From NCBI GenBank assembly GCA_031282065.1, contig JAITEL010000006.1:1-32273 (forward strand): a DNA stretch of 32,273 bases, written 5' to 3'. The notes under the pieces were generated by a model. It did not search any database, was not told the origin of the DNA, and saw only the letters and a program-made list of their open reading frames with translations. The position numbers and the translations under genes were made by a program. Positions 24,114 to 26,550 of the stretch are shown here, in pieces. Numbering within the stretch: the first letter of the stretch is position 1; each line of letters starts with the position of its first letter. Origin of the DNA: Treponema sp. (GTDB lineage: Bacteria; Spirochaetota; Spirochaetia; Treponematales; Breznakiellaceae).

Positions 24114-24320
24114 ACGTTCCCTCTGCCCTCCTCAAAACCCCATACGGTCCTGTACATACACCCGGTTTATGCCTGATCTGCCATACCGTATCGGGATCCA
24201 GAATAAACCATACCCTCCCATTAGCAAAGACCCCCCCGCCTGGGGTACAATAGAGGTAAGAAGACAACGTGCATCCTGAGTGCCCATAAGAAGGGGTGAG
24301 GGCGGAAGAGAAAAGGAACC
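24114..24320. promoter_or_regulatory. Divergent promoter region
   Basis: The gap separates divergent genes. Plus-strand TACAAT near 24246, preceded by TTAGCA about 19 bp upstream, is a possible promoter for 24321-25181. I see no clear minus-strand promoter and no gene. Confidence 0.3.
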
Positions 24321-25181
24321 ATGATTAGGGAGCTCGTTTTAAACCTGCGGCGAGTCAAAGTTTATGCCCTGGTGGGGGAAAGCGGTACGGGCAAAAGTTT
24401 TCGGGCAAAACTGGTGGCCCAGAAGTACCGTGTTGATTTTATCATTGATGACGGGCTGCTCATCCGGGATAACCGCATACTGGCAGGTCAGTCGGCAAAA
24501 AAAGAGAAGACCTTCCTTTCCGCGGTAAAAGTCGCCCTTTTTGATAACAAAACCCAGCGAGACGAGGTTGCCCGCAAGCTCCAGGGGGAACGGTTCAAGA
24601 AAATCCTGATATTGGGGACTTCCGTAAAGATGGTGAATAAAATCGCTGCCCGGCTCCAACTCCCGCCGCCGAGTAAAATCATAAAGATTGAGGATATCGC
24701 CTCCCAAAGGGATATTGAAACCGCCATGAGAACCAGGCGTATCGAAGGAAAACATGTGATTCCCGTACCTTCAATCGAGGTTAAACGCAACTACCCCGCT
24801 ATTTTTTATAATGCCATCCGGATCTTCAAACGGAAGGCGGTACCCCCAGGAATAGGTTCCACCCTCAGGGTTCATGAAAAGTCAGTGGTCCGTCCGGAAT
24901 ACTCAAAGCGGAATCGGGTGCTCATTTCAGAAACCGCACTGAGTTATATGGTTATCAACTGTGTAGATGAGTATAACCAAAACATACGCATTAAAAAGAT
25001 CATGATAAAAGACACTGCTATGGGCTACCGCCTGGTCATAACCATTGATGTGGCCTATGGTATCCAGTTAGGGGGAGATATACATGAACTGCAGCACTAT
25101 ATTATAGAGAGCATCGAACGGTATACGGGTATTCTCATTGAAGAAGTGAATATTATCATAGACAAAATTATCCAAACATGA
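24321..25181 (+). CDS. P-loop protein with C-terminal Asp23/Gls24-like domain
   Basis: The 286-residue protein is cytoplasmic, with no signal or membrane segment. A Walker A motif GESGTGKS lies at residues 19-26. FIIDDGLLI follows as a possible Walker B-like element, and ILILGTSVKMVNKIAARL is near 95-112. Residues about 200-286 (ISETALSYMVINCVDEYNQN through IEEVNIIIDKI) look like the Asp23/Gls24 (DUF322) fold. AAAAGGA precedes ATG 24321. I know no function for this combination. The N-terminal nucleotide site suggests an ATP- or nucleotide-dependent switch, and the Asp23-like part a protein interaction or envelope-stress role. Both are inference. Confidence 0.65.
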   Translation: MIRELVLNLRRVKVYALVGESGTGKSFRAKLVAQKYRVDFIIDDGLLIRDNRILAGQSAKKEKTFLSAVKVALFDNKTQRDEVARKLQGERFKKILILGTSVKMVNKIAARLQLPPPSKIIKIEDIASQRDIETAMRTRRIEGKHVIPVPSIEVKRNYPAIFYNAIRIFKRKAVPPGIGSTLRVHEKSVVRPEYSKRNRVLISETALSYMVINCVDEYNQNIRIKKIMIKDTAMGYRLVITIDVAYGIQLGGDIHELQHYIIESIERYTGILIEEVNIIIDKIIQT

Positions 25182-25320: not shown

Positions 25321-26550
25321 ATGAAGCGTTATGGTTTTATATTTTGTGCGGTCTTGTTTAGCGCTCTATCCCCGCAGCTTATAGCCGTACCGGCAATGGT
25401 ATCGGTAAGCGGTAAATATTACCTGGTTCAAAGTGACAGCGGAGCTGCGGATGCAGCCCTCCTTTCCCAGGAATTGGAAACCCGGTTTAAGCTGTACAAC
25501 AGCATTTTCCATTTTAAGGAGGACGCTATACGGGTCCCCCTCAAAGTCCGGGCCTATACCTCCAAGGAAGACTATGATGCCTATATCCTAGAGCACTTAG
25601 AAAAAACCAGCCCCGGGGCAGTGTATATGCACTACAATCAGCCTGAACGGCGGGAGTTGGTCATACACCGGGGCAGTGCAGAAGAGGCCCGGATGTTCCC
25701 CCATCAGGCCTTTATTCAATACCTGCGGGCCTTTATCCCCCATCCTCCTTCCTGGATCCGGGAGGGATTCGCCATCTATTTTAGCACCCTCAAGTTTGAG
25801 AGTGCTGCTCCTGTAGTACAGACCGAAACTTCCTCCGAGGCTGCTCCTTCTGATGGGGAAAGCCCAAAATCTCCGGGGGGATTGATCTACGAAGAGAATT
25901 TGGCCTGGCTTGAAACCGTAAAAAACCTGGGAGATAAGGCGCCTAGCCTGGAATCGGTATTCTTGGCAGATGTGCAAGGTTTTCCCGACCATTTACAAGG
26001 CCTATCCTGGGCTTTGGTTTCCTTTTTCAAAGACAGCAAACAAGCCCATTACGAGCGAATCCTCTACGAATGTTTCATGCTCCTCTCCAGTTCAGCAAGC
26101 TCGCCGGCTAATGCGGAAGTGGTTTTCCAACACATCCTCAGTTGGACCACCCTAGAAGCTTTGGAGCAGGATTATAAGGCATACCTGCATACCCGCAAGA
26201 CCTTTGTGGAACTCATTATCGAAGGACTGCAAGCATATAAGGATAAGGACTTGGAAACTGCGGAAGCGGTTTTCCGGCAGGCCTTACAGCAACGGTACAC
26301 CCATTACGCCCCTCATTATTACCTGGGCCTGGTAGCCTATGACCAAAAAAAGTACGATATTGCTGAAACCTATTACCGTTCCGCCTTGCAATACGGTGCC
26401 GATCCCGCGCTGGTTTCCTATGCCCAGGGAGTCAACGCCGCTTCTGCGGGCCGTAATAGTGAAGCCATAGCCTTCCTGGAACAGGCAGGGACCATCGCCC
26501 CCGCACAATACAAGGAACAGACGGATATGCTCATTAAGCGGCTGCGCTAA
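25321..26550 (+). CDS. Exported TPR protein with degenerate peptidase MA-like domain
   Basis: The 409-residue protein has an N-terminal signal peptide (MKRYGFIFCAVLFSALSPQL) and probably acts in the periplasm. The middle resembles peptidase MA-like proteins: HQAFIQYL at 128-135, then PSWIREGFAIYF at 144-154. Active gluzincins have HExxH at the first site and a Glu in 'xxEGxAxYF'. Here the second motif survives, but HExxH is replaced by HQAFI, so catalysis is doubtful. A Ser/Pro/Glu-rich insert lies near 165-190. About residues 300-400 form two to three TPR repeats (EGLQAYKDKDLETAEAVFRQ; YDQKKYDIAETYYRSALQYG). A GAGGAG site lies upstream of ATG 25321. A binding or scaffolding role is inferred. 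Confidence 0.72.
   Translation: MKRYGFIFCAVLFSALSPQLIAVPAMVSVSGKYYLVQSDSGAADAALLSQELETRFKLYNSIFHFKEDAIRVPLKVRAYTSKEDYDAYILEHLEKTSPGAVYMHYNQPERRELVIHRGSAEEARMFPHQAFIQYLRAFIPHPPSWIREGFAIYFSTLKFESAAPVVQTETSSEAAPSDGESPKSPGGLIYEENLAWLETVKNLGDKAPSLESVFLADVQGFPDHLQGLSWALVSFFKDSKQAHYERILYECFMLLSSSASSPANAEVVFQHILSWTTLEALEQDYKAYLHTRKTFVELIIEGLQAYKDKDLETAEAVFRQALQQRYTHYAPHYYLGLVAYDQKKYDIAETYYRSALQYGADPALVSYAQGVNAASAGRNSEAIAFLEQAGTIAPAQYKEQTDMLIKRLR

Follow-up and report, generated by a model that had tools for sequence, protein, structure and literature searches.

The members of the Asp23/Gls24 family (Asp23, YqhY and YloU) are usually small proteins that stand alone, as the earlier note on this DNA correctly stated. 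In Staphylococcus aureus, Asp23 assembles into filaments, with AmaP serving as the tether to the membrane; the molecular function of Asp23 has been termed unclear (PMC6954212). As for YqhY, the family member from Bacillus subtilis, its loss is reported to be suppressed by mutations of acetyl-CoA carboxylase (ACCase), and a role in regulating this enzyme has been proposed for it (PMC5437119). With regard to P-loop proteins of spirochaetes, a published list includes TPASS_0423 of Treponema pallidum under "P-loop containing nucleoside triphosphate hydrolases" (PMC4403809).

The protein described here by computational means joins a P-loop domain with an Asp23-like domain in a single chain. The fusion is real, the motif GESGTGKS being found at residues 19–26 and the Asp23-like domain at the C-terminus of the open reading frame, just where the earlier note had placed them. 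That note knew of no described role, and the searches of open-access literature likewise showed neither a description of the fusion nor a role for it. The combination of domains is already present in annotated databases, where a relative from Clostridia is filed in the Asp23 family.

The fusion gene and the two domains of its product

The gene covers positions 24321–25181 on the forward strand of the window, i.e. of the whole stretch of 32,273 nucleotides that was analysed; its extent, corresponding to 286 amino acid residues, is based on the open reading frame with an ATG start as well as on the relatives. Just 5' of the ATG, the sequence AAAAGGA (24311–24317, forward strand) was recognised by eye as a possible ribosome-binding site; no promoter-like match was found upstream of the gene on that strand, on which the domains and motifs given below are located, too. 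Residues 12–165 (24354–24815) make up the P-loop domain, including a conserved extension at its C-terminal end, as judged from the alignment and from a model that is good up to approximately residues 135–141. It is followed by a variable basic linker of low pLDDT (residues 166–200; 24816–24920), with a pI above 8 in 45/45 members, and by the Asp23-like domain (residues 195–286; 24903–25178), which was delimited by Pfam, profile-profile comparison and structure and has a modelled core at residues 204–284. The pI of the whole protein ranges from 8.8 to 10.1 in the same 45 members; it agrees with a link to RNA only weakly, since 42% of the 628 called neighbouring open reading frames also exceed a pI of 9. 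No strongly hydrophobic stretch was found, the top 19-residue Kyte-Doolittle mean being 1.0.

Conserved residues were counted in 45 members—the window protein, the Clostridia member L166 and 43 spirochaete proteins, with near-duplicates and the two pieces from the genome G238 omitted; the other alignments consisted of the window protein plus either 68 or 47 of the 80 loci. The Walker A motif (24375–24398), in the form GxxxxGK[ST], is conserved throughout, with G19, G22, G24, K25 and S26 present in 45/45 members; it suggests that the protein may bind a nucleotide and may be controlled by it. No Walker B motif was identified in the P-loop domain, the invariant DDG at residues 43–45 (24447–24455; 45/45 each) being the candidate for the acidic residues involved in metal binding or catalysis. 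The segment AGxSAK (residues 55–60; 24483–24500) is almost as strict, with A55 in 43, G56 in 45, S58 in 44 and both A59 and K60 in 45 of the 45 members. The pair TS (residues 100–101; 24618–24623; 45/45 each) ends a strand predicted by the models at residues 94–99, and a further cluster at residues 139–153 (24735–24779) comprises R139, H145 and P148, all in 45/45 members, and E153 in 44/45.

The AlphaFold2 model of the whole protein (mean pLDDT 72.5, pTM 0.45) consists of two ordered parts, approximately residues 11–135 and 204–284, separated by a low-confidence stretch that includes residues 142–200 with the linker; the C-terminal part adopts the order helix-strand-strand-helix-strand. Modelled by itself, the P-loop domain reached a pTM of 0.73. 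Its best Foldseek match was the gluconate kinase, a weak one (E 1.7e-3, TM 0.43), there being none at E <= 0.001, and the structure comparison by VIA gave Z values of up to 6.5 with many ties, among them the polynucleotide kinases Clp1 and Grc3, a putative kinase and adenylate kinases. In the profile comparison with seven P-loop families, adenylate kinase came first (E 6e-7 over 31 columns), with E-values of 1e-5 for the Cmk-like family, 2e-5 for HPr kinase (HPrK) and 2.4e-5 for ABC proteins, the underlying control alignments being uneven (HPrK 41, Adk 28, NtrC 8, ABC 7, MiaA 7, Cmk-like 6 and Ffh 4). These comparisons weakly suggest that the fold is nearest to the small-molecule and nucleotide kinases, i.e. 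gluconate, adenylate and related ones. Two other classes were considered and rejected. The ABC ATPase model (PF00005) scored 24.0 bits against a cut-off of 25 and the LSGGQ signature is absent from the sequence; the AAA+ model (PF00004) gave 20.9 bits for the window protein against a cut-off of 21.2, and 19.6, 17 and 15.2 bits for three spirochaete relatives (the proteins at L131, L133 and L135). The PDB sequence matches are dominated by ABC chains and confined to the P-loop region, and both names arise from a generic P-loop similarity scoring below the cut-offs.

Concerning the C-terminal domain, the Pfam model PF03780, which the earlier note had named for checking residues 195–286, matches the window protein at residues 225–283 with E = 0.01 and 16.7 bits, below the gathering score of 28, and a search of the own genome with the model gave nothing at E <= 0.001. 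It should be seen, however, against the family as a whole: 32 of the 45 members scanned match at E <= 0.01, and three of the four scanned singly pass the curated cut-off, namely L131 (41.3 bits), L133 (37.3) and the Clostridia member L166 (29.8), the fourth, the Borrelia-like L135, having no match at E <= 1. When the family profile was compared with that of 11 Asp23 proteins of the stand-alone type, taken from Spirochaetota, Bacillota and Fusobacteriota, residues 195–286 aligned over nearly the entire length of Asp23 (probability 96.1, E 3.2e-9); the Pfam match starts late because stand-alone Asp23 has about 18 extra residues past the first helix. The Asp23 match on which the earlier note depended is therefore present by profile, although the window protein itself stays under the Pfam threshold. 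From the window sequence alone the domain would be called Asp23-like only with a "perhaps", whereas the sequences of the family as a whole indicate that it is.

The AmaP model (NF033218) also aligns with this domain through its positions ~82–166: 15 fusion proteins match at E <= 0.001, some of them better than with Asp23, and the domain appears to be as close a relative of the C-terminal part of AmaP as of Asp23. The C-terminal domains of MamM and CzcD superpose on the modelled one (Z 10.2, rmsd 2.1, 80 aligned residues). An assignment to the CDF metal-transporter domains was rejected, only the fold being common (~10% identity) and the sequence profiles favouring Asp23.

The two halves are not conserved to the same degree. 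Against four close relatives, the dN/dS ratio is 0.05–0.08 for the P-loop part vs. 0.09–0.14 for the C-terminal part, values from which the gene is judged to be under purifying selection. The mean column identity is 0.68 vs. 0.51, and the median identity to the window protein among 43 members is 59% vs. 39%, for the P-loop and Asp23 parts, respectively. A T. pallidum-like genome (L138) has kept the P-loop half (aligned to window residues 13–176) and lost the Asp23 half, the next gene beginning 45 bases downstream. From the functions and order of the neighbouring genes, together with the gene numbering, this copy is presumably TPASS_0423. It is located at L138:8095-8886, just upstream of genes resembling a V-type ATPase operon. 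Since the P-loop half is the better conserved one and survives alone in that genome, the Asp23-like part looks accessory, and the fusion would be read as a P-loop enzyme or switch equipped with an Asp23-like module; the emphasis of the earlier note on a nucleotide-controlled Asp23 was not sustained.

Distribution of fused and stand-alone forms

The fusion was found in 81 of the 247 sampled genomes of Spirochaetota—in 69/69 from the same GTDB class vs. 12/178 from the rest of the phylum—and one homologue from Clostridia was found among plasmid records. The architecture, for which the earlier note had proposed a survey in spirochaetes and clostridia, is not rare in its own lineage, and its Clostridia form is already annotated as Asp23/Gls24. 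Within the class, 67 of the 69 genomes have a single match, one (G238) has the gene split over two contigs and one, the Borrelia-like G233, has two tandem copies (L143:4177-10185), each accompanied by a pseudouridine synthase and preceded by a transporter-like gene; the tandem pair may be a duplication or an assembly artefact. The own genome contains one copy, its remaining matches being restricted to the P-loop with E >= 9e-4.

The scan of contigs kept 80 of 114 relatives, 79 of them titled as spirochaetes. The remaining one (L080, genome G247) is a contig titled Candidatus Gastranaerophilales that carries a Treponema-like copy; it is probably a contaminant, since no other convincing match was found in 146 genomes of that phylum (Cyanobacteriota), in which just two genomes matched, i.e. 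G247 itself and G324, the latter weakly and in the P-loop only. Viral contigs gave no useful match with either the spirochaete alignment or the Clostridia protein as the query. In the protein WP_158648977.1 from Monoglobus pectinilyticus (Clostridia), the homology extends over the full length (92% of the query covered, 37.6% identity; profile E 5.5e-64), and the database name of this protein is already "Asp23/Gls24 family envelope stress response protein". It was the sole match among 72,556 plasmid records, some of which are misfiled chromosomes; NZ_CP154629.1, NZ_CP084075.1 and NZ_CP030101.1, filed as plasmids in PLSDB, have 2.1–2.9 Mb and resemble whole chromosomes.

Fused and stand-alone forms were compared in 149 genomes of Spirochaetota, where 27 of the PF03780 matches (E <= 0.01) belong to the fusion and 11 to small proteins, the fusion being absent from all 11 genomes with the small Asp23. 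In each of these 11 genomes an AmaP-like gene, above the curated cut-off in three of them, adjoins the small Asp23, and in 10 of them the other neighbour is the best accC match. The row accC–small Asp23–AmaP-like gene, as in the Gram-positive arrangement, was seen in other families of Spirochaetota at L151, L160 and L165, as well as in the genomes G014, G026, G037, G045, G066, G089, G094, G104, G124 and G147. By computed searches, AmaP is absent from the own genome, and no full-length AmaP was found in the sampled fusion genomes, in which the model detects just the C-terminus of the fusion except for weak partial matches in G019 and G074 (E <= 0.001); these mean little, since the model also matches in Escherichia coli at the same threshold. 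No accC match at E <= 1e-90—a threshold chosen in this analysis, some of the genomes being incomplete—was obtained in 51 of the 81 genomes with the fusion, the Borrelia-like and T. pallidum-like genomes among them.

Gene neighbourhood and possible roles

Neighbourhoods were counted with hidden Markov models in 38 genomes picked for diversity from the 81. The commonest upstream partner of the fusion is an RluA-family pseudouridine synthase (typed as PF00849, rluA subfamily), immediately preceding the fusion gene in the same orientation in 15/38 genomes from eight families, often with overlapping ends, and in 25/70 further loci with enough upstream sequence. Homologues of the TPR protein encoded downstream in the window follow directly in the same orientation in 10/38 genomes. 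By our reading of the sequences, two genes on the opposite strand recur in 14/38 genomes each, a CCA-adding-type gene downstream and an RnfC-like gene upstream. The window retains the TPR and CCA neighbours. The former (25321–26550, forward strand; 409 residues, identified by TPR matches) looks exported, having a signal-like start, and contains HQAFIQY ... WIREGFA, which, as read from the sequence, recalls a degenerate zinc-peptidase motif. Outside the class, again as read from sequence, the fusion at L130 is accompanied by ispE- and L25-like genes and that at L131 by a ribosomal rimM-trmD-like cluster.

Based on these neighbourhoods and on the domains, we tentatively prefer, as a possibility short of even, the reading that the protein is a kinase-like P-loop enzyme or switch, assembled or docked by its Asp23/AmaP-like domain and acting in RNA modification, ribosome maturation or translation. 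The product would be a soluble two-domain protein, the N-terminal kinase-like domain of which may bind ATP and, in view of the many invariant polar residues, would probably either transfer a phosphate or act as a switch by hydrolysing ATP. Of alpha-beta-beta-alpha-beta order, the C-terminal domain may be a module for self-assembly or partner binding that places or regulates the NTPase. The arena named appears the likeliest one because the RluA-family synthase is the commonest operon partner and the protein is basic. Several facts count against the link to RNA: the synthase does not adjoin the fusion in the window, where a divergent MgtC-like gene takes its place upstream, or in 23/38 sampled genomes, and in Monoglobus pectinilyticus the gene is found next to Rex and a DNA glycosylase. 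In the own genome, the best match to the synthase is on another contig (G000:C152:2282-3568), in two pieces within a frame of 439 residues, suggesting an insertion in the enzyme.

A rather unlikely alternative, in line with the nucleotide-controlled Asp23 of the earlier note, is that of an envelope or stress factor like the S. aureus Asp23. The Asp23 domain would then act as a polymer or on the membrane, its assembly being controlled by the binding of ATP. The homology of the C-terminal domain, seen by Pfam in the relatives and by profile-profile comparison, speaks for it, as do the Asp23 filaments placed at the membrane via AmaP (PMC6954212); moreover, the fusion could stand in for the pair of anchor and polymer, as no sampled genome contains both the fusion and a stand-alone Asp23 (27 and 11 of 149 genomes). 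Nevertheless, the Asp23 half is the less conserved one, the T. pallidum-like copy manages without it, no full-length AmaP was found in the sampled fusion genomes and a strongly hydrophobic stretch is lacking. A metabolic kinase phosphorylating a small molecule or nucleotide, in which the Asp23-like domain would only mediate oligomerisation, is a similarly doubtful possibility. Here the invariant residues look enzyme-like, and gluconate and adenylate kinases are the best matches by fold, the latter leading in the profile comparison, too; these matches are, however, weak and largely confined to the P-loop region, and the neighbours indicate no single pathway.

A more specific enzymatic role, that of an HPrK-like protein kinase, must be considered very unlikely. 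A local match does run from the Walker A motif through the DD pair and a hairpin to SAK (50 columns, 30% identity), its E-value being 2e-5 against 41 HPrK sequences, 2e-4 with seven and 6.6e-5 in another comparison, but the control families scored equally or better, PF07475 matched only 2/45 members at E <= 0.01 and the own genome has a separate genuine HPrK gene. The relationship was dropped once adenylate kinase scored better with the deeper HPrK set and the controls; the lack of HPrK among the 50 matches listed per structure comparison (Foldseek, VIA) proves nothing. Least credible of all is a regulator of ACCase, as proposed for the B. subtilis YqhY (PMC5437119). The stand-alone Asp23 is found beside accC in other Spirochaetota, but accC was not seen adjoining the fusion in the neighbourhoods read; since 51 of the 81 fusion genomes are without a recognisable accC, a YqhY-type role is not the general role of the fusion and was rejected for this lineage.

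The presence in every sampled genome of the class (69/69), down to genomes of ~1 Mb, together with the invariant nucleotide site makes the protein a good candidate for a spirochaete core factor; if not involved in anything essential, it would be just another conserved hypothetical protein. The occurrence within one phylum of both fused and stand-alone Asp23, AmaP and accC being present in some genomes and missing in others, makes it possible to separate the role of the Asp23 domain from those of its partners.

Relation to the known systems

The top Foldseek match to the whole model is the GTPase Era (GTPase plus KH domain; E 8.0e-6), in which a P-loop domain is likewise followed by a small alpha/beta domain; at a TM-score of 0.21, rmsd of 22.8 and 13% identity, this is a mere resemblance. 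An extended proposal, quite unlikely as it stands, would see in the fusion a class-wide core spirochaete ATPase partnering the RluA-type synthase in ribosome or tRNA maturation, i.e. an ATP-using analogue of Era with the Asp23/AmaP-type domain replacing KH; if true, it would suggest a nucleic-acid-related origin or capacity of the Asp23 fold.

TPASS_0423, if it is the copy seen in L138, shares the P-loop half, the Asp23-like half being missing. The membrane anchor AmaP (NF033218) has a transmembrane N-terminal part, which the fusion lacks. From the Asp23/Gls24 proteins the fusion differs in its size, its N-terminal P-loop domain and its position, since in the neighbourhoods read it is not beside accC, nusB or DAK2. 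Monoglobus pectinilyticus has both forms on the same replicon, the stand-alone Asp23 being placed beside a DAK2 gene. To Asp23, YqhY and YloU the C-terminal domain of the fusion appears homologous along the whole length, except for the insertion of ~18 residues.
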